Assembly (NCBI GenBank): GCA_009768925.2
Contig: VHIT02000028.1
Location: 186,001-250,000 of the forward strand
Reading direction: 5' to 3'
Length of the DNA stretch: 64,000 nucleotides
Source: Cryptosporidium bovis
Taxonomy: Eukaryota > Apicomplexa > Conoidasida > Eucoccidiorida > Cryptosporidiidae
Made by a program: the position numbers and the translations under genes
In this document: positions 32,714 to 55,137 of the stretch, in pieces
Position numbering within the stretch: the stretch's first letter is position 1
Layout: every line of letters begins with the position of its first letter
Notes under the pieces: generated by a model
Told to the model about the DNA's origin: nothing
Seen by the model: only the letters and a program-made list of their open reading frames with translations
The model's database searches: none

Positions 32714-35700
32714 ATGAAAAGTAAAAGAAGGAGGTCTAGGGCAACCTCACTAATTATATTAGATTTTTACTGTGTTTTATGGTTTATTCTTAATTTAAAA
32801 ACTCATGCTGATAATTACAATCAAATATTCGGGAGAGATAGTGGTTTTAATAATATTATAAATCAGCAGAGAAATGAATTTGTATATAATTATCCAAATT
32901 TTTTAGGTAGTGGTGTAATTTTTACTCAGGGGCCAATACCAAGCCAGAGCCCGACAACTACATTAGGTAAGGAGTTGTATGAAGAACTTAATGCTATAAA
33001 ACAAGGTACAAGACGAACGATTGTGACGAGTCCTGCGATTTATCCAGGAGTTACTCCCACACAGCATCATCCTGATTTAATAGTCACGCCTGTAGTTTTT
33101 GGTGAAAAGGATACAATAGTTAAGAAGAAACACAAAAAGTCAGGTAAATCAAAGAAGAAATCAAGGGTATTATCTTCTGCATTGATTCAGAATAAGGAAT
33201 TTTTTGAGTCAGTTCCAACTCAACTAGGTAAAGCAGTTACATTAAAAGATAAGTGTCAATTTGTTCCAACCCCAATAAAGGTTCCGGAACAAATTTATTT
33301 TTGGAAGGAAATAGAATACTCTAAAATAAAAAAAAGTGATTTCAATGTAGTTCCACCACATATAAGTCATAACAACCCATTCATAAGTTCATATGAGTGT
33401 CTTTCGTTATTTGATGAATCATTTATTGCTTTTAAGAATGGTGATCTTTTAATTTCACCAGAAGTGTTTGTGGGGCAAGTTAGACAAGTGGGAATGCAAT
33501 TAAGAGACTCTCTTATAAGCACTGAGTATATTATTTCAACAGAAGATGTGTGTTTGGCAATGAGAATTATGTTATCTCTACCACATCCATATAGAAATGT
33601 AATTAATTGTAGGTCAGCAATAATAGCGGCCATTAGGGATTTATCTGAGATTGAAAACTATGAGCTATTGGTTCAAAGCGATACAGTTATGGAAAACAAG
33701 TTTAAGGACGTTAATTTCTCATGTAAGAATACTCTTAAATTTCAAAATTTCGATTCAAAAAAAAGTTCAGAAGATTTTACTTTGAAACCTAATCAGCTAT
33801 ACAAACTGTTTCAACTTGATTTGAATCCCCAGGATTCACAGTTCTATTTAAGACTTGCACTTCCCCACAGAAAGGCAGTTCTTACAGTTCAGGATAGTTA
33901 TTTTAAGTTCACGAGCAATGCATTATTGTTTGATGTAGCTGCAGCCATAATTCTATTATTGAATGAATTACACGAAATAGACCAATCTATAGAGCAGTGT
34001 ATTGAGATAGTTAAAACTTGTGTTTCTCTGCAAGATGAAAATAACGAAAAACCACTAAATCCTTCAATAGCTGAGGGAATATGCAAAGAATTGGGGATAA
34101 CATCTGTAACGAAGAGGCGAAAGGTTAAATATAATTCTCATACATTAATTCAATTGCTAAAAAGATTGGCTCGTATGAAGCCAAATATTGATAATGAGCT
34201 TATTATTACTACCTCTCTTCCGTCAGGAAAAACACTGCTTCCGACTTCTGAATATGGGTTCTCGAAAAGATCTCCAAAAGTAGAGATTTGGCCAGTTGTT
34301 GGAAAGGTATTTTCTGATGGGACCATTAATAGTCCAATGATTCCAGCCTGTACTGGTATTCCTGCCTTTGAGTTTAACAGGTTTATACTGCTAAACACCT
34401 TTATAGAGAGGTATTTGGCAATATCTGGTCTTGGAAGGATAAAATTAACTATTGAGGACATATGCTTGATGGCAAAGTACTTTATATCTCATCATAACTC
34501 AATAAAGAGGTTGCAAAAAGAATCTGGTCAAGAAAGAGCAGTTTTTCCACTGGAAGATTCAATTCCTCTAGCTATATTTACCGTTACACAGAGTTTAAAT
34601 CTCGAATTATTTACAATGGATGCTTGTAGGGAGATATACAGAGAATTTATGGAGGAAGAGGAGGCATCCTTGAAGAAGGTAATGGGATACAATTACCTTG
34701 CTAAGATTGAGAGTTACTATTCGAAGCCACCTTTCAGCTATAATTCAAATACTAAATTAAAACACTTGCCAAAGATGATGGTAAATGGTGATAAATTTGA
34801 AAATACATATACTTGGAAGGCACTTTTAAGAAATCCTACTTGTTCTGGTTTGAAGCATCACGTTTTAAATAGGATAATTATGTTTATTGCTTATGTTCTC
34901 TCTTACTGGAGGAGTAGCTATCCTTCAGAAAAAATTCCATTCAAGAGTCTTTTTGAGGTTTGCAATGGGTTTAGCAATTCATTGGAAACTTACTCATTTA
35001 AAAGTCAAGAATTTGTTATATTTACAGAAGATTGGCTTTTTGTCAAAAGAGACAAGCTACATGACAGTATACTGGAGTCTATTTGGAATAATTTTTTAAT
35101 ATATGAAAGAACTGCTTTTCCAAAAAATTCAGAGGAAACAGAGACAGACTACATTCAAAGAGTATATCATTACTCTTTAATTCCAGAACCATTATTTATA
35201 GATGACTGGACAAAAATAGAACTTCCGATTAGGATGGATATTGCTGAATTTATCAAATTGACTCCATATGTGGACAAACATATAGGCCTGCTTTCCAATA
35301 GAGATGATCTTACAATTAATCATGTGACTTTGATAAAAGCATTTTTGGAAACATTTTTCGAGGAGGTATACCAATACCCTGTTGTAATGGAAGAAAAAGA
35401 TGTGTTGCTTTTAATGGATCGCAGAGAACTCGAAAAAAAGTCGATGGATGAGTTATTTTTTGAGATACAGAGCAAACGAATAGAATGGAACTGGTTAAAA
35501 CAAGAAACAGCATCCCATGCTATATTAGAGTTATTAGAATACCTTAAAATGCTAAGGAAAATAGTTGGGGATAAATTAGATAAGAAAGAACCAACAAATA
35601 AAGATATATTTTCTACACCAAGAGCTATTTTTACCCATGGTAAATGGCTAATAAAGACTCCTCAACCTGTATTCAGGTTGGCAAATTCATCCCAAAGACG

Positions 35701-38700
35701 AGCATTACACGGTTATCCAAAATATATTTTAAACAAAGCAAGGTACATTCAAGCTTATTTTATAAAGGCCTTTGATAGGGTATTACAATTTGATTTAAAT
35801 ATTCACATAGGTGACGTTGTAATGTCTTTGACAAATAGTAGAGGAGAAGATGAGAGGTTTATAGAACTTCTCACAGAAAAGCTTTCAAATAAGAGTGGTC
35901 AAAGTTTTATTACAAAGCAAGTGATAAAGGAGATATACTCTGCTTGTATTACATTTAGTTTCTATAAATACTCATTAAAAGGGGCACTTTCTGAAGAGCA
36001 GGCGTTTGCCTCTCCGAGAGTGTTTTACAAGCCGAAATTAGGTTGGGAATTCTTTCCCCCTAATATTCCGGACTTCTCCAAACTTCTCGCCTTAAGCAAG
36101 ATATTTAGAGGAGAAGAAGAGGAAGACATCGCTGGTTATGATGGTAAAAGGTCAAAAACAAGTAGTGGAAGTAGTAGTGATTACGGAACAGAGTCAAGTG
36201 TTCAGGGGGATAGGCATAGAAATATGGAAGAATCAAGTAAAACACTGGTTGTTAATCCCTATACCTGGTCATCCCTGAAGGGATTTGTTGAAAGTAAGAA
36301 ACTTGAAATATGGCAAACAAACAGAGCGATATCAATGTGTGCATACTTTAATCACTGGCTTTCTTATAAGTTTCCAAAAAAAAATCAAAAAGATATTAAG
36401 GTATCTGCCTGTGTGAATGCAATTTATCATTTAAAAAGTATGAATGGAGGTTACAGCCACTCAGAAGTAGTCCAAGTTTTCTTTAGATATATTGGAATTT
36501 CATATTTGAAAGAGGGTGATATTAAGGAAATGTTGTCTGCTTTTAACTCATACGAAAATATAGATAAACCAAATAACATGGGAAAGAGACAGTGGTTAAT
36601 GAGTTTTTATAGGATACCACAGATAGAAGAAACAGATAAAAATTCACTTGGAAGCAACTTTGAATCTTTGAGGCTTCCAATACCACCTAAATTAGGTCAA
36701 CAGTCGAGTATATTTGAAGAAAAGCAACAAATGAAGGACATATTACAGGTTCCAGATGTATTTATTCCAAAAGATTTTGACAAGAATAACATTTCGAATC
36801 TTAAAGAATTCTTGGAGAAGTTTACATACAGATTTTTAAAAAGAATGGGAATAAATGTTGAATTGGAGCTTGAAAAGTTTAACTTCTCAATTACTGAGGT
36901 GTTGAATAAGTGTACAGGCGAAAAGAGGTTGAGTTTAATGGACTCATTTGACGAACATTTAAAGGAAATAAATAGTAATCTCTCCTCTAATATCCCAAAA
37001 AGGCTTTCAGAAGGTTTCTATAAGTTTATAACATTAAAGTTTACTGGAAATAAGGAAGAAGAATTTGGTGATATAATTAGAAGAATATCCAGCAAAAGAA
37101 TCTTAACAGATACAAGTGAACTTCCATTTGACATCCCACTTGGAATAGTTCCTGGAAAAATTGACATTACAATGCCATATAACTCCCATTCATTTGGTGA
37201 AATGAACTTTGCTAGACTTATAATAGCATATTTCAATGAACACATAATAGAACAACAAGGAATAAGAGAAAAAATAACTGGATTTGAGGGTTCAAGTGCA
37301 ACAATAGGAGTTGATTTCGTTTCAGAGTACTGTTTAGGTAAATCTTTTGATATTATTAAAAAAGGTGGGATTGATTTACAACAAGCTATAGGGCAAGCTT
37401 GTTCACATGAGTTTCCTTGGTTAACAACCAAATTGTTAAGAGTACTAACTTCAGGTGTTTTGACTTATTGCCAAATAAATTCTGAAGATTTTCCGAGAGA
37501 CCAAAGAGGGAGAGAACTGCTTAAATATGTTAGAGAAAAGCTTAACACTCCGATAGTTTCATACGACGAAGTTCTAGGTACGTGGACAATGAAGGATATA
37601 CAAACAGGATTTTATGAAAAACAGGAGATATTTGACAATGATTATTCAACTTTAGAATCAGTTGGTACGGTTGACAAAAAGAATGGTATTGTTAGTTCAA
37701 CAAGTTTCTATCACTGTAATGATCTTAATGTTTCTCAAGTAAATAGAATTTTAGCAAAAATTCAGTATTTTAGACAATGTATGTCGGAGGATCCAAATAT
37801 AGACGTTTCTGAATTGGAAAAGTTATTGGATATGAATATTTGGTGCCTTTCATTGCGTCAGGAGGTCCCAAGTATGAGAAAATCTAATTCAAATTTACTT
37901 TTTAATTATTTTGGAATAGATTCAGCAACAAGACAAACATACGAGATTTTAGAAGACTGTTTTGAAGCAGTAGAAAACAGCAACTGGATGGAAAAGAGTT
38001 CTTTAAAGACATATCAACAGAATTTACACGGCACCTACTCAAATCACAAGAAAACAATAATGAAAATAAATTCACTAATAAAGTCGGACAAGCTTTTTTG
38101 TCCAAAGATAGTACTTGAAAGTGACTTGGTTTACTTAAAAAATTCCATGTCTGAAGATGCACATAGTAGAATAAGGTTATTCTCAGGTTATTCTGAAGTA
38201 TTTTTCAGATATAAATACGGTATTATATTTGAATCAAAGCCCGTATTGATTGGACTTATTGTAGACAGATTTGATAAGATAGAAGAATCTCGGTTAAATG
38301 TTAGAATATTCAAGTCAATGGTTCCACAAGCAACAGATGAATCAATTTTATCCTTGTTTAAAAGTTTTAATCTATATGAGGCTGAAATATTGAAAGGAGG
38401 ATTTGTTGATTTAAAGAGCATTTATAACAATGAACTTTGTAATGAAGTACAAGGAGATTGGCATTTTGTTTACCCTGTTGGAGACTTACAGAGGGATGAA
38501 GAGAGTTCTGATATTATTGGGAGACACATTTTTACCGAACAGGAAGTGAATAGAATGCAAACTATGGTTGCTTTTATAAACCAATCTTTGGATGAAATAT
38601 ATAAAGATAAATCAAAGGGTACATACGTTAGATTTATAGATATAGCTTTATTATTGAGGTCAAGGGCTGATATTAGTTCATTCTCAGTGTCTCTTCACTA

Positions 38701-39784
38701 CCTATACGGTATTTTGCAGGATGATATGAGATTCTATCCATGGTTTACTGTTAATGTACTAAAAAGCATTGTGAAGCCTTTTCTTGAGTGGGAAAATCAA
38801 CAAGTTTTTGGGTTAACAAAAGAAGCAAGCACTCAGCTGTCATTTTGGGCTCCTCAAAGTAAGATTAAGCTAAAGTACATTTACTCTCCTGTTGGGGTTT
38901 TGTATGATAGTCTCCACTGGTTTTCATGGGTCAAAAAACCAGTTTATTCAGAAATAGTTAAAAGAGTAGCAGTATTAGGAGATGAAATTGTGCATCCGAT
39001 GACTTCTAAAGAAAGAATTTTGTTCGGAACAGCTACTTCAAAACACATGTACGAAATGATGACATTTTACATTCAATACTTTTTACAGGAAGTAATGAAT
39101 ATAATCATTCCATTTGACATGGAATTAATGGTTCTTGCGGTTACGAGAAAATCTCAGATTGAAGATGAAGTTATGGATTTCTTTACAAACATATGGAAGT
39201 ATTATAGAGATTCTTACTTATTTGGAGGATTTATAGTAAATGGTGCTTTTCAAAATCCTCTTGTTACAATTATTAAAAAACAAAGATTCTTCCCACCAAC
39301 AGCTCTTCCTGAATTTGAGTACTTCGATAAAACAATTTTACCAAAAAAAATGGACAAGTTTATGGCTCATTTTAATGGAAGACTTGCCGTCTCAAAGGAA
39401 GTTGTAAACAGGGTTTCGGCATTCTGTGCATTTTTAAATCTTAGTTTTGAATCATTCATTACAGAAAAAATAAACGAGAACGAAATAATTACTAAGATTG
39501 GACTTTTACCTATCTTTAATAACAATCCAAGCAAAGAATTTCATGAAATTAAAGAGGAAGTAGTAGAAATGATCAAAAGAGACTTTCCCTTCTATTTGGA
39601 TACTCCAGAGAAGAGTGCTCATCTTATAAATACTATTGACTCTTATATATCGTTTGAAAACGAAATGATTAACTTAGGTTGGAGCATTTCTAATTTATAT
39701 AAAAAACCTCTTGCTGTTCCATTATACAATGGATATCATTTAGGTTTAAATTTGAGAAAATACATTCCTAATAGGAGAACTTAA
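32714..39784 (+). CDS. Giant secreted protein with degenerate helical repeats (2356 aa)
   Basis: A 7.1-kb single exon starts at the ATG at 32714. A basic head (MKSKRRRSRATS) is followed by a hydrophobic leader (LIILDFYCVLWFILNLKT), a signal peptide or signal anchor. Residues about 30-160 are a Pro/Thr and Lys-rich linker. The rest is helical and built from look-alike modules. Examples are FILLNTFIERYLAISGLGRI (about residue 556), LNRIIMFIAYVLSYWRSSYP (about 719), NRAISMCAYFNHWLSYKFP (about 1202), EVNRMQTMVAFINQSLDEIY (about 1942) and EVVNRVSAFCAFLNLSFESF (about 2228). Several modules carry a second half with a (F)Y/F-P-W-(F/L)-T element, as at about 1571 and 2011. A Ser-rich acidic break occurs at about residues 1135-1185. 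No family is recognised. Confidence 0.82.
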   Translation: MKSKRRRSRATSLIILDFYCVLWFILNLKTHADNYNQIFGRDSGFNNIINQQRNEFVYNYPNFLGSGVIFTQGPIPSQSPTTTLGKELYEELNAIKQGTRRTIVTSPAIYPGVTPTQHHPDLIVTPVVFGEKDTIVKKKHKKSGKSKKKSRVLSSALIQNKEFFESVPTQLGKAVTLKDKCQFVPTPIKVPEQIYFWKEIEYSKIKKSDFNVVPPHISHNNPFISSYECLSLFDESFIAFKNGDLLISPEVFVGQVRQVGMQLRDSLISTEYIISTEDVCLAMRIMLSLPHPYRNVINCRSAIIAAIRDLSEIENYELLVQSDTVMENKFKDVNFSCKNTLKFQNFDSKKSSEDFTLKPNQLYKLFQLDLNPQDSQFYLRLALPHRKAVLTVQDSYFKFTSNALLFDVAAAIILLLNELHEIDQSIEQCIEIVKTCVSLQDENNEKPLNPSIAEGICKELGITSVTKRRKVKYNSHTLIQLLKRLARMKPNIDNELIITTSLPSGKTLLPTSEYGFSKRSPKVEIWPVVGKVFSDGTINSPMIPACTGIPAFEFNRFILLNTFIERYLAISGLGRIKLTIEDICLMAKYFISHHNSIKRLQKESGQERAVFPLEDSIPLAIFTVTQSLNLELFTMDACREIYREFMEEEEASLKKVMGYNYLAKIESYYSKPPFSYNSNTKLKHLPKMMVNGDKFENTYTWKALLRNPTCSGLKHHVLNRIIMFIAYVLSYWRSSYPSEKIPFKSLFEVCNGFSNSLETYSFKSQEFVIFTEDWLFVKRDKLHDSILESIWNNFLIYERTAFPKNSEETETDYIQRVYHYSLIPEPLFIDDWTKIELPIRMDIAEFIKLTPYVDKHIGLLSNRDDLTINHVTLIKAFLETFFEEVYQYPVVMEEKDVLLLMDRRELEKKSMDELFFEIQSKRIEWNWLKQETASHAILELLEYLKMLRKIVGDKLDKKEPTNKDIFSTPRAIFTHGKWLIKTPQPVFRLANSSQRRALHGYPKYILNKARYIQAYFIKAFDRVLQFDLNIHIGDVVMSLTNSRGEDERFIELLTEKLSNKSGQSFITKQVIKEIYSACITFSFYKYSLKGALSEEQAFASPRVFYKPKLGWEFFPPNIPDFSKLLALSKIFRGEEEEDIAGYDGKRSKTSSGSSSDYGTESSVQGDRHRNMEESSKTLVVNPYTWSSLKGFVESKKLEIWQTNRAISMCAYFNHWLSYKFPKKNQKDIKVSACVNAIYHLKSMNGGYSHSEVVQVFFRYIGISYLKEGDIKEMLSAFNSYENIDKPNNMGKRQWLMSFYRIPQIEETDKNSLGSNFESLRLPIPPKLGQQSSIFEEKQQMKDILQVPDVFIPKDFDKNNISNLKEFLEKFTYRFLKRMGINVELELEKFNFSITEVLNKCTGEKRLSLMDSFDEHLKEINSNLSSNIPKRLSEGFYKFITLKFTGNKEEEFGDIIRRISSKRILTDTSELPFDIPLGIVPGKIDITMPYNSHSFGEMNFARLIIAYFNEHIIEQQGIREKITGFEGSSATIGVDFVSEYCLGKSFDIIKKGGIDLQQAIGQACSHEFPWLTTKLLRVLTSGVLTYCQINSEDFPRDQRGRELLKYVREKLNTPIVSYDEVLGTWTMKDIQTGFYEKQEIFDNDYSTLESVGTVDKKNGIVSSTSFYHCNDLNVSQVNRILAKIQYFRQCMSEDPNIDVSELEKLLDMNIWCLSLRQEVPSMRKSNSNLLFNYFGIDSATRQTYEILEDCFEAVENSNWMEKSSLKTYQQNLHGTYSNHKKTIMKINSLIKSDKLFCPKIVLESDLVYLKNSMSEDAHSRIRLFSGYSEVFFRYKYGIIFESKPVLIGLIVDRFDKIEESRLNVRIFKSMVPQATDESILSLFKSFNLYEAEILKGGFVDLKSIYNNELCNEVQGDWHFVYPVGDLQRDEESSDIIGRHIFTEQEVNRMQTMVAFINQSLDEIYKDKSKGTYVRFIDIALLLRSRADISSFSVSLHYLYGILQDDMRFYPWFTVNVLKSIVKPFLEWENQQVFGLTKEASTQLSFWAPQSKIKLKYIYSPVGVLYDSLHWFSWVKKPVYSEIVKRVAVLGDEIVHPMTSKERILFGTATSKHMYEMMTFYIQYFLQEVMNIIIPFDMELMVLAVTRKSQIEDEVMDFFTNIWKYYRDSYLFGGFIVNGAFQNPLVTIIKKQRFFPPTALPEFEYFDKTILPKKMDKFMAHFNGRLAVSKEVVNRVSAFCAFLNLSFESFITEKINENEIITKIGLLPIFNNNPSKEFHEIKEEVVEMIKRDFPFYLDTPEKSAHLINTIDSYISFENEMINLGWSISNLYKKPLAVPLYNGYHLGLNLRKYIPNRRT

Positions 39785-39869: not shown

Positions 39870-41536
39870 TCATTCAGTTACTACCTTTTTCAACTCATTT
39901 ATTAACACTTTTTTCAATATATTTTCCAGCTCTGAATCGTCATCTTCATCACATTCATTACAGGTAGTCTTTTCATCCTCTTCTTTTTCGTCTTGAGCTT
40001 CCTTCATTTTCTCATTCTCACCATTCTCATCATGATTTACAGGATCTTCATGATCCTCATCGCGATCTTTATCATCTTCGTCACTGTCTAAATTTTCCAG
40101 TTCCTTTATTAAATCAAATATTTTGTTTCTATTCCTTTTTGATATTTTTTCATTCTCTAAATTACAAACAAATTCGGCTCTGTGTTGTTCATCATGTTCT
40201 AGTTGGTTGTTTTTGTATTCACTTATCTTTTCCGTTTTTTCTTCGCCACTTTTATCTTCTTTTTCTTCATATATTTGATTTGCAAACACATTAAAGCAGT
40301 CTTCATTTCCTAGGGAAGCTCTGATAACAGCCCTTATTTTTAGTTCCATATCTCTTAAACTATCATGCTTTTTAGAATTTTCCCACTTATTCCAGTCGTA
40401 ATTATATACGTAATTATTTTCAGTGGTAAAGTTTTCGTTTTTTTGAATAAAAGAATTGTTAATATAATTTACAGCCTAAAAAGTGTGTTTTAATTTAAAT
40501 TGATATTTTAAAATAACTTACTGAGGTCTGATCGCCTTTTGGATCATCTCTATTAACAGTGAGTCCTAAATATAGCTCTCTGTTTATAAAAGCATTTTTC
40601 TTTGCATCTATTTCTGGTTTCACTTCTTTTGGTATATCAATCAATTCATAATTGAAAGGTCTTTTTTCAATTGTTTTCATTCTTAAATAATTAGTCCTTC
40701 TAGAAGCTACTTCATTGTTTTTATCGTACATTCCAAGCTCCTGGGTTGGTATTAAAACGATTACAAAGTTAAGTTTAAGACTCAAGGATAATTAAAATAC
40801 TAATTTAAACAACAATACTTACCCAAAATCTGAATAATTCAGAAGTATTTCCTTGATTAGAATCAATATTTTGTGTATCATTCTTATTAAATAATAAATC
40901 CCAATCCTCTCCTGAAATATCCAGGTCATCAAACTCGCTCTCAACTTCAGTGTCATTCTTTATTCTTCCACTTTCAGTTAAATCCGAGTCAATGCAATTT
41001 GAACATACTTTTGTTCTCATTTCTCCGAATTTTAAACATTCTACATCACATTCATGTGATTTTGGGAGTTCGTATATAGCTTGTTCCACACCAAAGTTAC
41101 ATTTATTACAATCCAAAGCAGGGTATCTGTTATTATAGTTTGAATGTTCACCACCAGATAATTCCAAGTCTTCACATTCAACACAACACACATTTTTTTG
41201 GCATGAAAGTGGCAAAGAACAATCAAAGTAAATCAAAAATTTATTAGTATGGTGTGTTCCTTTACTCACACAGTTACTCTCTGAGTTGGAGCTACTATCA
41301 CAAAAACATTTGCAACAAGACACCTCCGTTAAATCCGAGTTAATGGTAAGTTTCAAAGTATTATTCAATTTTTCCTGTATCACATAATTTTTATAAGGAT
41401 TTGTATATTTCACAGAAGGTTTAACTTGATTTTCCTCAATTAATTCCTCTTTTTTTTTTCCAATCTTTCCTTGACAAACTATTAACAAAATTAGGACATC
41501 AATACAATAGAACACGAAACCTATAGGTATCTTCAT
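39870..41536 (-). CDS. Secreted Cys-rich protein with acidic C-terminus, three exons
   Basis: I read this as complement(join(39870..40475, 40522..40740, 40823..41536)), 512 aa. The introns (82 and 46 nt, both with GTAAGT donors and CAG/TAG acceptors) are in phase 0. Exon 1 has a signal peptide (MKIPIGFVFYCIDVLILLIVCQG) and about 20 cysteines in pairs (CCKCFC, CCVEC, CNKC, CSNC), suggesting several disulfides. Exon 2 is a basic domain (TNYLRMKTIEKRPFNYEL). Exon 3 ends in a very acidic Asp/Glu tract and a short amphipathic helix. No known Cys-rich fold was matched. Exons correspond roughly to domains. Confidence 0.78.
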
Positions 41537-42221: not shown

Positions 42222-45200
42222 TTAAACCACAATCAATGTAGAATTTTGGGTGTAAGGACCCTGAATAAAACCGTCACTTATTATGTTTGAGCCATCAATT
42301 TTAATGTTTATCTCTTTGGAAGTGAGAATAATCTCACCTAAAGCTCCTTCTTGTCTCAAAGTAAGTTTAGTTACAGTATCATATTCTGTGTAATCCTCAA
42401 GTGGAATACTAAATTCTCCAAAACTAACTTCGTTTTTCTTGATAATTAGTAGTTCGTTAACTAGGATGTCAATGACTTGTTCTTTATAGTAGAATTTACC
42501 ATTAATTATTTTATATGAGATATCATTTATCACTGCCTCTTGTATCGACCCAGGATTGTGCGTTAGCACTATTTCAACCTCATTTAATGACTCTTTTTGG
42601 GCTAACTTCAATCCATATTCTCCAATTGAGTCACAACTACAGGCTATTTGCCCATTATAGATGCTTGTAGTACACCTAGTTGTATCCCATTGACTGTCAC
42701 TGCCTTCTAATTGCTTTGAGGCGCATTCATATGTAACAAATCTCTCAGATACAACTCCGGGAGTGTACTCTGGAGCAATTAAAAATTCAACATTCACATT
42801 ATTTAAATTGTAAATATTGTATTCATACCCACATCTTGAGATAAATGCTTGATACGTGCTTTTAAATTTATTTTCCAATTTGTTATTTTTCGTTGATTTC
42901 ACCAATCCAGCTAATTCATTCAAATAATTTTCAAGAGACGGCCTTATAATGGTAATGCCGTATCTTGAATCAAAGCAATTTGATAATAGATAACTACTCC
43001 ATTTAGAATCGAATATCATATTTTCATTTAAATGATAGTATATATTCTTTATCAAGTGTACTTCCGTTTTACCTTCTTGATTAAACTTTATTGGAGGAAG
43101 CTTGAATTTCGAATCCTTTAACTCAATTCCCTTACCCAATTGGATCTCAGATAGTATATATGAAGCTACATTCACCTTACTATTAATACCATTGAGGTTA
43201 ATACTGTCCCCAAACGTGTTTGACATGATCCACTGGTTTGTTGATAAAGCACCTAATAAACTTGTGGTGTCCTCTATACCAGTCTCCATTTTTCTTTCAA
43301 GTATAAAGTCAAGTATGTCAATGACAAGTTTTGGGTAGTTACTATTAAATCCACACTCAGACTTCAATAACAACTCACTTATTTGCTTCAATGTCAAGGA
43401 TGATATGTCTAATTCATCTACTGTTATTTCTTGGTTGTTTCTGATATAATCAAATACCTTCCAAACAGAATATAGATTTAAGAATAAAATTCCTCCTGAA
43501 AGCTCTCTTTTTGTATAATCACCATCCAATATAATTTTTAATATTTGCATCATTTGTGAAGTAGTTAAATATCTTATGTTAGATGTTAGTATTGATTCTA
43601 TCATAGATGTATCACTTTCGTCCACAATATTTGTTAAGGTTTTCTCGTTTTCATAGTAGTCAAAAAGTGAAGAGTATTCCCTTTGTATGTCTGATAATGA
43701 CATTGAACTGTTTTCATTTGCTCTAAAGCTTATGTTCATACATTTAGAGCTGTTTCCGGAGGCACAAAACATTTTTCTTAAATGTTCATCTATATTAGAA
43801 ATAGATGAACAATCAATACCGCATACTAAATCGTTATTTTTATTGTGTATTATTAAATGCACAAGCCAATTTTCATTACTTGTTGGTAAACGTATGTACT
43901 GGGGGAGATTAGGAGATAAATATGTCAATAATGTTGACTGTGTACTCGTACTTTGACCTGGATTTCCTGCTGTTGCCAGTAATGAATACTTCCAATCACT
44001 CATTCCAATTTTGTTAGACAACTTAAAGTTGAGCGGAATGACTTGTTTTATTCCAGGATTTATAATTGTTGAAGAACTCATTTTTATCGTACTGTAATCA
44101 TTTTCAAATGGTATATCGCTCCAAACATATGAAACATATCCTCCAGAGGATACCATATTCTGAATGTTGCTTCTTTTTACTAAGGAATTCAAGTTGCTCT
44201 CAGACAATATATTGTTTTCGTTTTCGTCATCTGTTTTTTTCAATACTACTAGTAATATTGATACTTTTTCATCTCTTGGATTTATTTCGTAATTCCTAAT
44301 ATCTATTGTTATTGAAATGTCAATATCTGTGAATTGTTCTGTTTCATCTTGACTCAATTCAAAGGTTTCTGGACTAGTAATTAAACGAATAAGTCCAGTG
44401 TTCTCAAAGTACAAAAATGAAGCAAATTTAATTTCTTGAACACTCTCCCATCCATCACTTTTTCCAACGTACTTTATCGCTGTATTTAAATAAGTTCTGC
44501 TTGTATATGGTATTGTACTCGGAACCTTTTTGGTAATAATTTGTATTGGAGACTTTTGTTCACTTAAAATAACATTGAATGTCCTGCATTGAATTGCATT
44601 GCTCTCGTGACTTCTAATTCCAATTGCAAATACTAAATAGGTTCTTGCAGTTTGAGGAACCAAGTTGAATTCTGTTAATGTTGTGTTGCCTGAAATGGTT
44701 GCATTTGATTGCTGTGTTGAACAAGCTTGGCCCCAATAAAAACCGTCTGTAGTGCAAGCATTTGAGAGTCCTTGGGAAATTGTTTCAATATCGTCTTCAT
44801 CAGAAGTAGCTGCACACAAATATCTTATTTCCTGGTTAGAGTATTGAAAATCTGCTTGATAACTTCTTAATCCCCTACATGAATTGCAGCTTATACCTGA
44901 GTTACTACTTTCCACATCACAATAACCTTTGCTTGCAACTATTTGTTCAATTGTTTTTGAATTACCTATCTCAAAAGACATTTTTGGATAGTTACCAAAA
45001 ACAATTTCAGGGTACTTTGCCATTATGTTCGGAGTTATTGTTTCGTTATGAATTATAATATTATTTAATGAACTTTGCAAAGAGCTTGAACTTGATTCAA
45101 AGATCAAATGCATCAGGGAAATTGGCTGATTAATGGCATTCTGATTTTCATTAATAACTAATTGAGCTGTTTTCTCATAATTGCATTTCATCGCTTCACT

Positions 45201-48200
45201 TTTTACGTATTCTTCTTTATTTACTGAAAGATAACAACCTCCAAAAGATTCCAGCAAACTTGGAACAAAATTGATGTTCTTTTCAATTGCAACCTTTTCT
45301 CCAAAATCAAAATATATCTTATTTGCACTACTACCCGAAAAGTATTTTTCTAAATAACTTGAACACTTCTCTGAATATTCATTTGGCACTGAAAATGGAG
45401 TATTCTTATATTTAATTGATGGAATTGGAACTTTATCCTTTGTATAGGCTCCTGGAATATTAATATATTTATTCATCAAGTGAATTCTTGAAATTTCTCC
45501 GAATTCCGAAGCTAGGCTAATATTTTCATCCCCAGAAATTATTAAATCAAATATTATAAAATCGTATAAATCTTGTACATCATTTCCCAATTCAAGCTTT
45601 GAAAGCTCCAATCTCACTTCTATATATACGGTTATTATAGATTGAGTATTGGTTTTTTTAATCATATTTTCTGGTCTCCAAATTCCGAAGTTGGTAGGCA
45701 TATTAATTGTTTGGAAGAATGTCGGTGACGCAAAATAGGTAATATTAACATTGCTTCCGAGCCTAGAGAATGTATAATCTAAATTTTGAAGCGATTTTCC
45801 AAATTCTGTACAAAACTCCAAACTATCATATGAATCTTCTGGCAACTTGCAATTAAACTCGAGTGAAAAATTCTCATCTGGAATTGTTTTTGGTAAGTTC
45901 TTTAATTGAATGGTTATTGGTAAGAAATCGTTACATGTACTTGTCATTGGTGGATTTGAGACCAATAAAAATGGCTGGAGGATGTTTGGATTTGTCTTGG
46001 AAAATAGTGGTGATAAATCTTTACTTGTGGTTGATTCAATATATGGAACAGCTTTTCCTTCCATACCATAATAAGTAATTGCATTACATTTGCAAATAAA
46101 CTCTATTGTTTGAGTTTCAAAGTTAACAACCTGTTCAGTTTTACATAAGGAAGAAGAGAATCCCAAATAATCCTTTTGCATTGCTGTACATTTAATTCCA
46201 GAATAATCAAGTTCTTCCTTATATTCGGCAAATAATGAAAACTCTACAGGATTTTTCAAATTCCAAATCTCGAATTCCAGAGTACATAACACAATTGAAC
46301 TAAAAGCCAAAGGATACTCTTCAATGTTCTCAAGTCCGTTTATTACCAAGTGATTACTCAAATAATTTCCGGTTCTAATTACAGTAACTGTATTAACATT
46401 TTTTTTGCATTGTTTATACCCTTCATTAGCTTCTCCTATATTATAGAGAAGTTTATTCATTTTATAATATACACCTCTGTGAAGAAGGATATCATCCTCG
46501 CTTATATCGGAAAATACAATAGATGGAAACTTGTTGCCACCAACATTAACTCCATTCTTCAAATCCACTTTATTGAATGTACTGCTAAAGAAGCTGTTAC
46601 CAGTTTTTTCTGTTACCAAAGAATAACTTCCACCAACTCCCTGAGTATAACTTTTTCTTGAAGCTACTCCTTGATAAATTCCCAACAAAATTTGAAGTTC
46701 ATCAGGAGTTAATACTGGAAGTGGGTTAATTGCTCCAACTATATCTGTTGTATTTAAAACAATGTTGTCTATACCATCTATCAAGAAGCATTCCACAACA
46801 GTGTAAATTCTTTCAATAGAATTAAGAGGCAGTTTTGTGTTGATATCAAGTCTCTCTCTGTAATAGTATTTATTGTATATTCTACTCATAGCTGCCAAAG
46901 TAGTTGGTTGGGCAAAGGGATAATCTTGGTTAAATGAAACTACATGAGAATCTATTGCAGTGTTATAAATAACATCAAAATATTCCTTCCAAACAACTTC
47001 ATTAGTTGTTGGGAGAGAGAAAATAGCATTGAACAAACTCATCGTATCAACATATGATAGATATGAAATAGGATTTGTCAACACTGCAATAGCATCCTCT
47101 ATTTGAGTGTCACTCAATTCTTCACTTGTTCTTACAATTGTGTAGTTACATAGATTGTATTCAAATGGATTGTTTACACCTTCTTCGAATTCAGGTAAAC
47201 ACCAATTTGCATAGGGACTTCTACTCATGTCACCTTTACATTTTACGAAACAACCTTGATCCCATTTATCTGTACTTCTTGCAAAAACGTACCACTCTGA
47301 ATGAGTAGATGGTAACCTCAAACCAAAACGATTGTGCTGACCCGCAACTACCATTTCAAATATTTGACTTTCTGGAGTAAATACTGGTGAGTCAACTGCA
47401 ATTGAGTAAAATAAGAAGGGCGTTATTGTATAATTATATTCATGAATTACATCCACTGGTGTATAAAGTGCGTCCGCTATTGTTACAGAATCCTGTATTG
47501 GTTGTATAACATCAGAATCTTTCGTAATAAATCCATTATTAACTAAAATCCATTGAACATATTCATGCATACCTTCACTTGATTCGTATATTCTCGGTGA
47601 TTCTAATCTGTATTCCTCAAACCTAACTCCTCTTAGCTTTTGATAGTTGTCTTTCTCATACTCTTCATTTAGGAAAACAAATGCTCTAACTACACAAAAT
47701 GTTGGCGAATCATAGTATTTGTAGAATAAATTTTTAGGAATAGTTATAGACGCACCGACTTTACCATCAACGTCTTTTATATCCTGAATTTTAAGACTTT
47801 CTGGATATATAGGCAAGTCTATATTATCAATTTCTGGACATATTAACCATGATTTTAGTTTCATTATTGAGTCAGAGGTCCAAATTTCACCTTCTTTTTT
47901 AGTGTCGCTTAGATCATCATTGAAGACGTCTATATAAAATGAATATGAGAATTCTCTATTCATGAATATTCCTGGCAATATTCCTCCTATGAATGGTTCA
48001 GTATAAGGATTTATTTGTGTTAATTGAATAGGCTGGAATTTATCTGTTACAATTGTGTAATAATTTTGGTAAAAGAAATATGTATTCATTGGCGAACAAC
48101 ATGTATCATTTGAAAGTGTATTGTACAGGAACATAGTGTTTGTTTTGTAACTATTTGCGGCTAGAGTAAAGTGCGTTGTATTCTTCCCTACAGGTGTCCA

Positions 48201-50108
48201 AATATTTTCTTCAGAATTTACGCAAGATTCAAAACCACTATTGTGCTGCTCATCGATAGATGAACCTAATATACCAGTGAAATATCTAAATGTAATTATA
48301 TCATAGTTCGGTATTTTTGTCCTATTCGCAGAGCAAAATTCAGTAAAGTTCATTTGGTCAATCATATCTGTTTTCCAAGGTATTAGTCTTGGATTAGAAC
48401 ATTGCCAGCAACCATTTGCCTCAGCACAATGACCAAATCTGTCCTGCATAAATTGAAAATTAAAGTTGAAAAATGGATCACCGGCTTCAAGATCTCTCCC
48501 TGAATATTGAACAAATGGAACATCTAGCCTTGGGTATGGAGAAGTTAACTGAAGTGGCGAACTTGCACCGAAAATGTGATACGAGGGATAAGAACCCATA
48601 TAATCAACATTACTGTTATATTCGAACACCTTATTTAGTCCTGAGTACTTCTCAACACCGTATTGTAATATTGAAGTTGTCATTGTCTGGTAGTTACTAA
48701 CACCATATATTACTCTTCCAAGAGGAGGAGGATAGAATGCTGTTTTGTACTGATCGGATATAGTATTAGCCTGCTCAAAGCATAAAGTATCTTTAAAGCC
48801 CTCATTTGTTACACTTGGAACAAGTGGAAATGTTCCGTTGAAATAACAACCTCCATAAAAATTTTGCGTTTCTATCCATTGGGAATTGGGAGATCCAACA
48901 GGAAAGCCACTTTCATACCATTCAGCTCCAAATGGTATTTTATTCCAGTATGATTGAGTTGAAATGGTGTTTCTATATATATTTGTGCCGGAACTCTTGT
49001 CAAGAATAGCATCTAATTTTTTTGGGTATTCTTTTACCTCACTTTCGGACTCAGCTGGTTTCTCTGTTGTTGGATAGTAAAAATCATAATTACTCGTGCA
49101 CAGTAATTCAGTCTGCGGAATTCTTGATGGTGGAATAATTCTCACAGAGGGGCTTGTCATAGCAATGTTTGTGCTTCCCCATGCAACAAAGCCTGACTCT
49201 TTACCTGGTTCTGTGTAAGTTGTACTCAATACCACATTTGCAAATTTATCATTCGGGATGAGCATAGGAAAAAATCCACCAAAACCATTTGGAGGGTTCC
49301 AAAAAGAAGAAATGGCTTCCGTTTGAGATGAATATTCATGACTCAATGTTATATTTGCAGAAAATTCAATTACCGGAATATCTGTTGCATATGAAGTAAG
49401 ACCTGGATAAATTTGTTCATAATTAACACTTATTTTGAAGGGAAAGGTAATAGTTTTAAACAAATATGATTGAATTCCAAGATTGTCAGTGTCTGTAAAT
49501 ATTTCATGATAAAATTGGTATTTTACATCTCTATCAAGTATTCTGGGAATTTTATTTTGAAGCTCATTATTTAAATCCTTAACTATGTCAACTAACTTTG
49601 AACCTTCCAACCAAATTGTAATGTTGTTTACACCATTAAAAACAGAGTATGAAATCTTGCTATCTAATATTACCTGAGCAATATCTGAACATGCTTTAAC
49701 AATGTTAACAGTGTCAGATTTGATTTTACTTGACTCACTAATACTTTTTTCTAAAGATTTTGAGTCACAAGAGATTGATTTTAATGGAGTTTTGCCGCTG
49801 TTTTCGTAGATTCCAATAAATTGCAATGTAATAGGATGCATAAATTGGCACGGACTTACGAAATTAGTTACTTGACTATCTATTGAAAGAAAATTACCTA
49901 CTGCTGGACCTGTATAAACGTCTGCCAAGTTGAATCCAATAGGATAATAATAAACTCTATTTGGTTCAGCGTTCAAATCGTACCCAGTTACGATTAAACT
50001 GAATTTCTTGTCATTCTCAACAAAAACTAAAACAAATATGATTAATATTGATAACCATCTATAGCCAAGTGATCTTTTTAAAGGCAACATTGTAGGAAGC
50101 CTTTTCAT
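42222..50108 (-). CDS. Giant secreted/extracellular protein with two GPS-like cysteine motifs (2628 aa)
   Basis: A 7.9-kb single exon runs from the ATG at 50108. The N-terminus has a basic head and hydrophobic leader (WLSILIIFVLVFVE). The ectodomain is Asn/Ser/Tyr-rich with many cysteines and N-glycosylation sequons. Two segments resemble the GPS motif of adhesion GPCRs and polycystins. One is at about residues 1299-1345 (ending FICKCNAITYYGM), the other at about 2455-2505 (SQWDTTRCTT then IACSCDSIGEYGL). Between them (about 1750-2050) strands such as NTTLTEFNLVPQTARTYLVF and WKYSLLATAGNPGQST recall REJ/PKD-type modules. There is no clear C-terminal membrane helix. Homology is inferred from short patterns; the protein could be a novel adhesin-type surface or matrix protein. 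Confidence 0.8.
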   Translation of the reverse strand: MKRLPTMLPLKRSLGYRWLSILIIFVLVFVENDKKFSLIVTGYDLNAEPNRVYYYPIGFNLADVYTGPAVGNFLSIDSQVTNFVSPCQFMHPITLQFIGIYENSGKTPLKSISCDSKSLEKSISESSKIKSDTVNIVKACSDIAQVILDSKISYSVFNGVNNITIWLEGSKLVDIVKDLNNELQNKIPRILDRDVKYQFYHEIFTDTDNLGIQSYLFKTITFPFKISVNYEQIYPGLTSYATDIPVIEFSANITLSHEYSSQTEAISSFWNPPNGFGGFFPMLIPNDKFANVVLSTTYTEPGKESGFVAWGSTNIAMTSPSVRIIPPSRIPQTELLCTSNYDFYYPTTEKPAESESEVKEYPKKLDAILDKSSGTNIYRNTISTQSYWNKIPFGAEWYESGFPVGSPNSQWIETQNFYGGCYFNGTFPLVPSVTNEGFKDTLCFEQANTISDQYKTAFYPPPLGRVIYGVSNYQTMTTSILQYGVEKYSGLNKVFEYNSNVDYMGSYPSYHIFGASSPLQLTSPYPRLDVPFVQYSGRDLEAGDPFFNFNFQFMQDRFGHCAEANGCWQCSNPRLIPWKTDMIDQMNFTEFCSANRTKIPNYDIITFRYFTGILGSSIDEQHNSGFESCVNSEENIWTPVGKNTTHFTLAANSYKTNTMFLYNTLSNDTCCSPMNTYFFYQNYYTIVTDKFQPIQLTQINPYTEPFIGGILPGIFMNREFSYSFYIDVFNDDLSDTKKEGEIWTSDSIMKLKSWLICPEIDNIDLPIYPESLKIQDIKDVDGKVGASITIPKNLFYKYYDSPTFCVVRAFVFLNEEYEKDNYQKLRGVRFEEYRLESPRIYESSEGMHEYVQWILVNNGFITKDSDVIQPIQDSVTIADALYTPVDVIHEYNYTITPFLFYSIAVDSPVFTPESQIFEMVVAGQHNRFGLRLPSTHSEWYVFARSTDKWDQGCFVKCKGDMSRSPYANWCLPEFEEGVNNPFEYNLCNYTIVRTSEELSDTQIEDAIAVLTNPISYLSYVDTMSLFNAIFSLPTTNEVVWKEYFDVIYNTAIDSHVVSFNQDYPFAQPTTLAAMSRIYNKYYYRERLDINTKLPLNSIERIYTVVECFLIDGIDNIVLNTTDIVGAINPLPVLTPDELQILLGIYQGVASRKSYTQGVGGSYSLVTEKTGNSFFSSTFNKVDLKNGVNVGGNKFPSIVFSDISEDDILLHRGVYYKMNKLLYNIGEANEGYKQCKKNVNTVTVIRTGNYLSNHLVINGLENIEEYPLAFSSIVLCTLEFEIWNLKNPVEFSLFAEYKEELDYSGIKCTAMQKDYLGFSSSLCKTEQVVNFETQTIEFICKCNAITYYGMEGKAVPYIESTTSKDLSPLFSKTNPNILQPFLLVSNPPMTSTCNDFLPITIQLKNLPKTIPDENFSLEFNCKLPEDSYDSLEFCTEFGKSLQNLDYTFSRLGSNVNITYFASPTFFQTINMPTNFGIWRPENMIKKTNTQSIITVYIEVRLELSKLELGNDVQDLYDFIIFDLIISGDENISLASEFGEISRIHLMNKYINIPGAYTKDKVPIPSIKYKNTPFSVPNEYSEKCSSYLEKYFSGSSANKIYFDFGEKVAIEKNINFVPSLLESFGGCYLSVNKEEYVKSEAMKCNYEKTAQLVINENQNAINQPISLMHLIFESSSSSLQSSLNNIIIHNETITPNIMAKYPEIVFGNYPKMSFEIGNSKTIEQIVASKGYCDVESSNSGISCNSCRGLRSYQADFQYSNQEIRYLCAATSDEDDIETISQGLSNACTTDGFYWGQACSTQQSNATISGNTTLTEFNLVPQTARTYLVFAIGIRSHESNAIQCRTFNVILSEQKSPIQIITKKVPSTIPYTSRTYLNTAIKYVGKSDGWESVQEIKFASFLYFENTGLIRLITSPETFELSQDETEQFTDIDISITIDIRNYEINPRDEKVSILLVVLKKTDDENENNILSESNLNSLVKRSNIQNMVSSGGYVSYVWSDIPFENDYSTIKMSSSTIINPGIKQVIPLNFKLSNKIGMSDWKYSLLATAGNPGQSTSTQSTLLTYLSPNLPQYIRLPTSNENWLVHLIIHNKNNDLVCGIDCSSISNIDEHLRKMFCASGNSSKCMNISFRANENSSMSLSDIQREYSSLFDYYENEKTLTNIVDESDTSMIESILTSNIRYLTTSQMMQILKIILDGDYTKRELSGGILFLNLYSVWKVFDYIRNNQEITVDELDISSLTLKQISELLLKSECGFNSNYPKLVIDILDFILERKMETGIEDTTSLLGALSTNQWIMSNTFGDSINLNGINSKVNVASYILSEIQLGKGIELKDSKFKLPPIKFNQEGKTEVHLIKNIYYHLNENMIFDSKWSSYLLSNCFDSRYGITIIRPSLENYLNELAGLVKSTKNNKLENKFKSTYQAFISRCGYEYNIYNLNNVNVEFLIAPEYTPGVVSERFVTYECASKQLEGSDSQWDTTRCTTSIYNGQIACSCDSIGEYGLKLAQKESLNEVEIVLTHNPGSIQEAVINDISYKIINGKFYYKEQVIDILVNELLIIKKNEVSFGEFSIPLEDYTEYDTVTKLTLRQEGALGEIILTSKEINIKIDGSNIISDGFIQGPYTQNSTLIVV

Positions 50109-53116: not shown

Positions 53117-53131
53117 GCATGCGATGGCGCC
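53117..53131. promoter_or_regulatory. Composite GCATGC-N3-GGCGCC element, probable promoter of the polytopic protein gene
   Basis: GCATGC (53117-53122) and GGCGCC (53126-53131) are separated by three bases. The element lies 30 bp before the first plausible ATG of the downstream gene (53161). The same pair with the same 3-bp spacing is at 55399-55413. Confidence 0.5.
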
Positions 53132-53160
53132 AATGCAAATATTGCTTATTGAGAGTAGTA

Positions 53161-55137
53161 ATGCTTGGTAAAGGTGACAAAATGATAAGCAATTTATTTG
53201 GATCAAGATTTATCTTCTTTGGAGTTTTTACAGTACTATGTTCTGGGTTTCCGTTTTCCTCCTTATTTGCAATACCAGGTGTGTGCTCAAAAAGTTTTGA
53301 GGAGTTGCTAACCAAGTCAAAAGTTGACATTGGGGTGATTGTAACTCTTTCAATAATACTAATATGTTTTTACCTATTAATCAGTGGAATAAGTTTGATA
53401 AATTTGTCAGGATGTTTGCAAAGATTGGGGATGCCAAAGGATTACCCAAATGCAGTAATGCGAGCAATAATGTATTCAAAGTATAGAAATGATATCAATT
53501 CAAGTCTGAACAAAGCATATTCAAATGAGAACTGTTACTATTTTGGTGGGGATTCAGCTTACGATTTTAGGGGAGTCAGGATTAAAGGAGGTTCTAGGAA
53601 GAACATGGAAGGTATTCGCTCATCCTCGCCACTTTTGACAATAGAGGGTGAACTAAAAAAACGTTTTAAAAAGTCAATAAAATCACTAAAGGCTAGATTT
53701 ACATTGGCAATTGTGAGTATTATGGTGCTTTTTTGCCTATCATATGCATCTTTTGTTATTTTTCAAGGTTCACAAATTTTTTTTGATTTTGAGAGTTTAA
53801 AACCCGATGAATTTGGACTAAATTTTTTTAAAGGTAATCCAGAATTTAATTACTCAATATTGTTTTTACTGATCGCGACAGTTTCAATTATAGTTATAAA
53901 CTCATTCACTGAAGGAATACTGATAATTAGTATAGTGTCATGGGTAAATTTTTTTGGCTTACTTTTATTTTCATTTCTTTCTATAAGCTTAATAAACGAC
54001 GAAAGTATGAAAAAAGATGCGAGTATTAGTCGTTACTTTAATTCTGAGTCACTTTTTGATTGGGATGTTCACATTTGGGGTATATTTGGTAGTATTTTGG
54101 ATATTGGAACATTTGTAATTTCTGCACTAACATTTCACATTATTTTGCCAGGTGCATTAAAAATTCTATCAAGTAATGAAGAGATAAGGTCTTCCAAAAT
54201 TTGGACTTTAACTATAACTTTGGTTGTCTTTATATTCTTTTGCAAATCTTTGATGGTAATTGGAGTATTGCCTTTTTTCCCAATGATACCTTTTGAGTTT
54301 GATCCTAACAGTGATGGAATAAATATTACTTGGTTGATTTTAAATTCAAAAATATCAGGAAATGGTGGAAACGAAAATGTAATTTTTAGTTTGGTTAAAC
54401 ATATTTTCCTTCTTGGTAACTTTTTTACTTGGGTTCTATTTACTTCTATTGCAGTTAAATGTGTGGATAACATATCAAGGTCAATAACAAACAAACTTGA
54501 ATGCGACTTTGAAACTAACTCAGCAAAACAAAATTCAATAAGCAATAGGTACTTTTTAAGGCCAAGTAATAGACAGGTTTTTTTAAACTCAAATTTTACG
54601 GAACAAGAAATTTCATATGTTCAGCTTGATAGCTACAGCAATAGTTCTACAGGACTTTCAGCACAAAGCAACTTAATTAGAGGTTCAACATATTCTGTTT
54701 TTTCTGGAGCAAAGTTAATTGAAATAGGAAAACAAATAATAAATGTGACCATAACTGTTGGACTATTTTTTTATGTACATTACAAACTTGTACATGAGCC
54801 ACAGTTGATTCCAGTATTCAAATCCATTTGTATATCGCTTTTTGTATTTATTGTTCTTATTTTACCTTGTATGGTATTTTGGTTGGTATTCTATGCAGAT
54901 ATGATCCCTAATTCAATAAGTTTTGCTCAGAAATTGAATCTTATTTTTTTGGGAAGAATTTCAACTAGGCTTGAAAAGAACATAGAAAGAGAAGTAGAGA
55001 GATCTTCGAATTCTGAGAAATGCACTCTGTCATGCAATCCCATTACTTTTGGGTTCTTTTCTATATCACTTCCATCTATTCTCGGTTTAGTAATTTTAAT
55101 TTATGAACTTACCAAAATAGCCAACTATTTCATGTAG
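53161..55137 (+). CDS. Polytopic membrane protein of unknown function (about 658 aa)
   Basis: About ten hydrophobic segments are spread over the whole length, the first at about residues 16-38 and the last directly before the C-terminus (SLPSILGLVILIYELTKIA). A hydrophilic loop (about 80-165) contains a Gly/Ser/Arg-rich part. A second loop (about 440-510) is Ser/Asn-rich. No transporter signature is recognised. The reading frame is open back to 53002, but that stretch has no suitable ATG until 53119 and contains the composite promoter element at 53117-53131. I therefore place the start at 53161; 53182 is an alternative. Confidence 0.72.
   Translation: MLGKGDKMISNLFGSRFIFFGVFTVLCSGFPFSSLFAIPGVCSKSFEELLTKSKVDIGVIVTLSIILICFYLLISGISLINLSGCLQRLGMPKDYPNAVMRAIMYSKYRNDINSSLNKAYSNENCYYFGGDSAYDFRGVRIKGGSRKNMEGIRSSSPLLTIEGELKKRFKKSIKSLKARFTLAIVSIMVLFCLSYASFVIFQGSQIFFDFESLKPDEFGLNFFKGNPEFNYSILFLLIATVSIIVINSFTEGILIISIVSWVNFFGLLLFSFLSISLINDESMKKDASISRYFNSESLFDWDVHIWGIFGSILDIGTFVISALTFHIILPGALKILSSNEEIRSSKIWTLTITLVVFIFFCKSLMVIGVLPFFPMIPFEFDPNSDGINITWLILNSKISGNGGNENVIFSLVKHIFLLGNFFTWVLFTSIAVKCVDNISRSITNKLECDFETNSAKQNSISNRYFLRPSNRQVFLNSNFTEQEISYVQLDSYSNSSTGLSAQSNLIRGSTYSVFSGAKLIEIGKQIINVTITVGLFFYVHYKLVHEPQLIPVFKSICISLFVFIVLILPCMVFWLVFYADMIPNSISFAQKLNLIFLGRISTRLEKNIEREVERSSNSEKCTLSCNPITFGFFSISLPSILGLVILIYELTKIANYFM

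Follow-up and report, generated by a model that had tools for sequence, protein, structure and literature searches.

Two tandem GAIN-type units, predicted to be cleavage-dead, in a large and probably secreted Cryptosporidium protein

A stretch of 64,000 nucleotides from Cryptosporidium bovis (assembly GCA_009768925.2, contig VHIT02000028.1, positions 186,001 to 250,000; hereafter the window) contains a complete open reading frame (ORF) at window positions 42222..50108 on the minus strand, encoding 2628 amino acids in a single frame without internal stop. Computational analysis resolves this protein into a repeated unit of ~1,120-1,310 amino acids, whose two tandem copies have diverged. Each copy is made up of an N-terminal part (N-part), which in unit 1 consists at least partly of beta sandwiches, and a GAIN domain that ends in a GPS-like motif. 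Research on GAIN domains has centred on their part as the self-cutting switch in adhesion G protein-coupled receptors (GPCRs) and polycystin-1. The protein described here is best explained, with a probability of roughly 0.6, as an adhesion or matrix protein that is secreted and rich in disulfides and in which cleavage-dead GAIN domains would serve as structural or binding modules.

Unit 1 follows an N-terminal hydrophobic stretch (residues 1-45, 49974..50108; all features of the protein lie on the minus strand), whose hydropathy maximum of 1.83 at residue 13 is the highest in the protein and which is predicted to be a signal peptide or, less probably, a signal anchor. The N-part of unit 1 (residues 46-990, 47139..49973) is common to three paralogs and contains a conserved GGC[YF][FY]NGT[FY]P stretch; a profile of the family aligns with residues 1-1400 over 1251 columns (E 1.9e-90). 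GAIN domain 1 comes next (residues 1000-1352, 46053..47111), and its fold is well supported by structure prediction. In the model of residues 861-1400 the chain adopts the helical-plus-beta layout of GAIN, with a helical subdomain A (~1000-1156), a beta subdomain B (~1161-1350) and a short turn between the last two strands at the position of GPS motif 1. The best 11 re-aligned structure matches to this model are all extracellular regions of adhesion GPCRs. The motifs close GAIN-type domains, in line with the GPS likeness pointed out in the original prediction. By sequence, the protein found no match among solved structures, and the family profile matched only a ribosomal protein there (E 0.31), which is taken as chance. 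A viral structure library gave no match at E <= 0.001.

The GPS-like motifs occupy residues 1307-1349 (46062..46190) and 2462-2500 (42609..42725), and each block follows the GPS order C..[W/F/Y]..C....C-x-C-x-x-[I/L]-x-x-[F/Y]-[G/A]. Both of the Cys/Tyr-Gly blocks that had been picked out at the start are present; their positions require correction, with CKCNAITYYG starting at residue 1339 and CSCDSIGEYG at residue 2490, not near 1337 and 2497. Matches to the core pattern, C-x-C-x-x-[ILVM]-x-x-[FY]-[GA]-[ILMV], number exactly two in 7/7 two-unit orthologs and one in 16/16 single-unit relatives (three of this genome and 13 of the protein collection), making 30 sites in 23 proteins; no further match lies in any of the window's six frames. 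Among shuffled proteins the core appeared in 12 of 20000 and the full cysteine and aromatic anatomy in none of 20000, counts that are a guide only because the pattern was written after the sequences had been inspected. The full anatomy fits site 2 in 7/7 orthologs and is matched in 16/16 relatives; at site 1 it fits only 2/7 and misses five. Pfam GPS (PF01825, curated cut-off 22.5 bits) was reported in 7 of the 23 full-length proteins (4/7 two-unit and 3/16 one-unit; E 0.0041 to 0.65), with every match at the predicted motif site, and the fragment 2415-2525 of the window protein alone matched at E 0.021. A Pfam scan of a set of six one-unit proteins returned no GPS match. Chance matches to other families are about as strong, and weight is therefore placed on the repeated position of the GPS matches and not on their E-values. 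A GPS profile search of the genome was a weak negative, there being likewise no signal in any control genome. On the same stretch as GPS (~residues 1315-1362), Pfam DUF5874 matches weakly in 4/16 one-unit proteins (P0011, P0014, P0015, P0016; E 0.011-0.24), and the DUF5874 and GPS profiles may be related.

Downstream of motif 1 lie the N-part of unit 2 (residues 1386-2066, 43911..45953) and GAIN-like domain 2 (residues 2120-2505, 42594..43751). Profile comparison of residues 900-1480 with residues 2040-2628 aligned 261 columns (probability 95, E 2.8e-8), and a one-unit family profile matched residues 1400-2628 over 400 columns (E 2.7e-19). The family GAIN scored 146.6 against residues 2120-2510 (E 7.2e-20; maximum of 60 column shuffles 29.0), while GAIN 1 scored 70.8 against GAIN 2 (shuffle maximum 29.6); by this homology there is good support for a GAIN fold in domain 2 as well. 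When unit 2 alone was searched against its own genome, unit 1 of the same gene was recovered (E 0.015) and nothing else. At the start of unit 2, the family profile matched 78 columns of residues 1388-2066 directly after GPS 1 (score 45.0, E 2.2e-4, probability 45), compared with a maximum of 24.2 in 40 column shuffles and 16.6 for the reversed control; the unit 1 profile of the window protein scored 21.9 against the unit-2 N-part, not above that shuffle maximum. Against the whole of unit 2 the family profile gave five weak secondary matches, three of them collinear with the main match (one being the 78-column match at the start) with a probability of ~1 or less each, and the two weakest not collinear. 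On the strength of its start, its GAIN part and the collinear hints between the two, the region separating the motifs is best taken as a diverged copy of the whole unit. The cysteine content, 50-52 in two-unit and 24-26 in one-unit proteins, fits two units versus one. Unit 2 is the less conserved: invariant columns among the seven orthologs number 540/945 in N-part 1 and 186/375 in GAIN 1, against 186/681 in N-part 2 and 103/439 in residues 2067-2505.

REJ or PKD modules had originally been proposed for this same region, and the proposal has no Pfam support: neither is matched in the window protein or its orthologs, and a diverged second unit accounts better for the stretch. A REJ search of the genome gave no match, a weak negative given that the signal in two control genomes also stayed below the cut-off. 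The N-parts may nevertheless be made up of Ig/FnIII (REJ-like) sandwiches; in unit 1 such sandwiches are weakly indicated at residues 711-857 (47538..47978) and at residues 861-995 (47124..47528), the latter directly N-terminal of GAIN 1. Could the protein then serve in fertilisation, as a REJ-like/GAIN adhesion factor of gametes? Two such sandwiches do seemingly precede GAIN 1, and passages of PMC4810088 describe the REJ module of polycystin-1 as ~1000 amino acids with four FnIII domains. This role is unlikely.

That the protein is secreted is suggested by its N-terminus together with its sequons and cysteines and the absence of a membrane span beyond the GPS. In a hydropathy scan over 19 residues, the region after the last GPS reaches no more than 1.35 in 23/23 proteins (0.98 in the window protein), and no membrane-like stretch, whether seven-transmembrane (7TM) or multi-span, follows it in any of the 23, in keeping with the earlier expectation of a protein without a C-terminal membrane helix. 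What follows instead in the two-unit protein is a conserved soluble tail (residues 2506-2628, 42225..42593) with 55/123 columns invariant in the seven orthologs. The distance from the last CxC to the end is 138 amino acids in 7/7 two-unit proteins, and a conserved stop is therefore likely. At the N-terminus some relatives have a weak hydrophobic stretch (P0018 0.27, P0014 1.03, P0012 1.28). The large size and the 50-52 cysteines of the two-unit proteins, with nothing membrane-like beyond the last GPS, would also suit a structural component of the oocyst wall or of another extracellular wall layer; however, many of the conserved cysteines lie, by eye, at GPS and other domain positions and not in short Cys repeats, and no localisation to a wall came to light, though no search was aimed at one. 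A wall component has only a small chance of being the right description.

At the position of the canonical H-L-T, motif 1 carries A-I-T and motif 2 carries S-I-G. The pattern holds across the family, with A-I-T at site 1 and S-[I/L]-G at site 2 in 7/7 orthologs, and with A (15) or G (1) at -2 in the 16 single-unit relatives, 11 of which have Ser or Thr at +1. The catalytic His at -2 is therefore present at 0/30 sites, Ala (22), Ser (7) or Gly (1) standing in its place, and self-cleavage of the GAIN domains is unlikely on this sequence evidence; the reading of the blocks as autoproteolysis sites is not supported. The absent triad argues against autoproteolysis and not against the fold, because, according to passages of PMC13062082, the motif is absent from 10/32 human adhesion GPCRs, and BAI2, which has it, hardly undergoes cleavage. 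A soluble yet autoproteolytic protein, in which each GAIN would cut itself and the halves would stay associated, could draw on the Thr at +1 of site 1 in 7/7 orthologs, on the Ser or Thr of the 11/16 relatives and on the model turn at the canonical place. Yet the residue that the same passages name as the base of the reaction, His, is missing throughout, and site 2 has Gly at +1 in 7/7 orthologs, which makes such a protein very improbable.

As in the GAIN domains of adhesion GPCRs (BAI2/ADGRB2, 8oek; BAI3/ADGRB3, 4dlo; latrophilins; CD97), the predicted architecture combines a helical subdomain A with a beta sandwich B whose last strands form the GPS, with the same GPS cysteine and aromatic positions, and, as in BAI2 and BAI3, efficient cleavage would not be expected. 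Unlike these receptors, the protein has no 7TM domain, no H-X-S/T and no identified HormR domain, and has two GAIN-type domains per chain together with a lineage-specific N-part. The ectodomain of polycystin-1, a REJ module plus GAIN, is comparable in being very large and of extracellular type, with sandwich domains probably directly before GAIN, the REJ likeness itself being only possible; it differs in that the window protein has no membrane spans after the GPS, no H-X-S/T and no Pfam REJ or PKD match, and its unit is duplicated. A further idea is a split polycystin-1/2 system, in which the protein would provide the ectodomain and associate non-covalently with a polycystin/TRP-like channel encoded separately. 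The same genome encodes a 697-residue protein with a Pfam PKD_channel match, and the N-parts may be REJ-like. However, that match is borderline (23.6 and 22.0 bits, cut-off 22.4), the weak solved-structure matches of the channel candidate are to TRPC3 (E ~0.01) and not to a polycystin, and no link between the channel gene and the two-unit gene was found; the partnership is highly improbable. The broader proposal is as hard to credit, namely that the family is a receptor-free version of the polycystin-1 or adhesion-GPCR ectodomain, a four-gene secreted set with REJ-like sandwiches and cleavage-dead GAINs that would act in trans, for example by docking to a separate polycystin/TRP-like channel of the same genome. 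The channel candidate itself (L020:70-2163, match at C22:90483-90887) is multi-span by eye.

Several results weigh against a secreted protein built of two GAIN-type units. Foldseek TM-scores of the GAIN 1 model to 4dlo are low (0.29/0.42, root-mean-square deviation 10.0), and besides 4dlo Foldseek found only an axonemal chain, which is no GAIN, at E <0.001 (4.8e-4); two axonemal chains are among the structure matches of the model. The best Pfam GPS match reaches 18 bits, below the curated cut-off, unrelated families match equally weakly in the same scans, the full-length window protein has no Pfam match and the site 1 fragment gave no GPS match. Duplication of the N-part rests mainly on the one 78-column match, the global N-part profile alignment having failed (score 2.8; shuffle mean 2.2, maximum 7.6), and the model of the unit 1 N-part (residues 40-985) has a predicted local distance difference test (pLDDT) score of 37 and is unusable apart from one sandwich. 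Finally, 11/23 proteins have an internal hydropathy window >1.6 in what is a plain hydropathy scan and not a membrane predictor, and internal spans in some relatives are still possible. These windows recur at two places in ortholog groups, ~271-277 and ~1275, the second just upstream of the GPS and within the aligned GAIN part; the window protein itself reaches at most 1.24 there. A fold other than GAIN, either of the related autoproteolytic type (the ZU5/Nup98 group, described as GAIN relatives in a reference title) or a sandwich that arose by convergence and bears a CxC motif by chance, would accommodate the sub-threshold Pfam scores and the axonemal chains, but it is scarcely probable given that helical subdomain A, the sandwich and the four-Cys GPS order are all present and in the correct sequence, and that adhesion GPCRs fill the first 11 places among the re-aligned entries.

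If the GAIN domains of a secreted adhesion or matrix protein neither cut themselves nor lead into a receptor, what would they do? They would fold without self-cutting, and the receptor role of GAIN, in which a tethered agonist is held beside a membrane domain, would be absent. With neither the self-cutting residues nor a membrane anchor, the fold is probably a plain extracellular building block, and the GAIN domains may be rigid, disulfide-locked, glycosylated modules of a large released protein. After its release such a protein could lie on the parasite surface, in the parasitophorous space or within a wall layer, and its N-parts would bind partners there; this adhesion or matrix function is inferred, as are the location and the stage. 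The three single-unit paralogs probably do related jobs.

Genome searches with three family proteins agreed in returning one set of four genes, of which the two-unit gene lies on C23 and the single-unit genes on C39, C8 and C18. Six orthologs cover 99-100% of the query at 54-56% identity, including those of Cryptosporidium ubiquitum, C. canis, C. hominis and C. felis, and L002, a paralog encoded in this genome, shares 97% identity with a protein of C. xiaoi, a near relative of C. bovis. The C. hominis and C. felis orthologs are named 'Secreted GGC family protein' in the source, a name carried by orthologs P0006 and P0007 and by relatives P0012 and P0017, and the homology spans the unit. The 'Secreted GGC family' and 'large secreted' proteins of Cryptosporidium are accordingly orthologs and paralogs of the window protein, the paralogs with one unit and the window protein and its orthologs with two. 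In protein searches with length and word limits, two of which gave identical candidate numbers (5849) and an identical set of 13 proteins, all relatives with a named organism were from Cryptosporidium and none was found outside it. Neither the source names nor the precomputed Pfam columns of the relatives mention GAIN or GPS. GAIN in ciliates and in slime moulds was reportedly dealt with by Arac et al. in 2012. In a domain survey of 2007 that has the C. parvum and C. hominis genome papers among its references, GPS carries the label 'Ani', apparently meaning animal-specific (PMC2394772), and passages of a 2025 paper state that the structured adhesion-GPCR ectodomain, GAIN included, appears restricted to holozoans (PMC12716839). 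No description of the present proteins was found in open-licence literature on Cryptosporidium or apicomplexan GAIN, GPS and GGC, nor in passages of PMC2394772.

Elsewhere in the window, a 243-residue Cys-rich ORF with a hydrophobic start (40805-41536, minus strand) lies downstream of the two-unit gene on the same strand. Two very large ORFs on the plus strand (32714-39784, 2356 residues; 20706-26315, 1869 residues) have no Pfam match at E <= 0.001, and neither has a 672-residue ORF with many membrane-like hydrophobic stretches by eye (53119-55137, plus strand).

A duplicated, cleavage-dead GAIN family with no membrane part following it in an apicomplexan would be a natural case of the fold without cleavage or receptor. 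It would also offer a first structural lead on these large, conserved Cryptosporidium proteins, which go by generic names only in the source.
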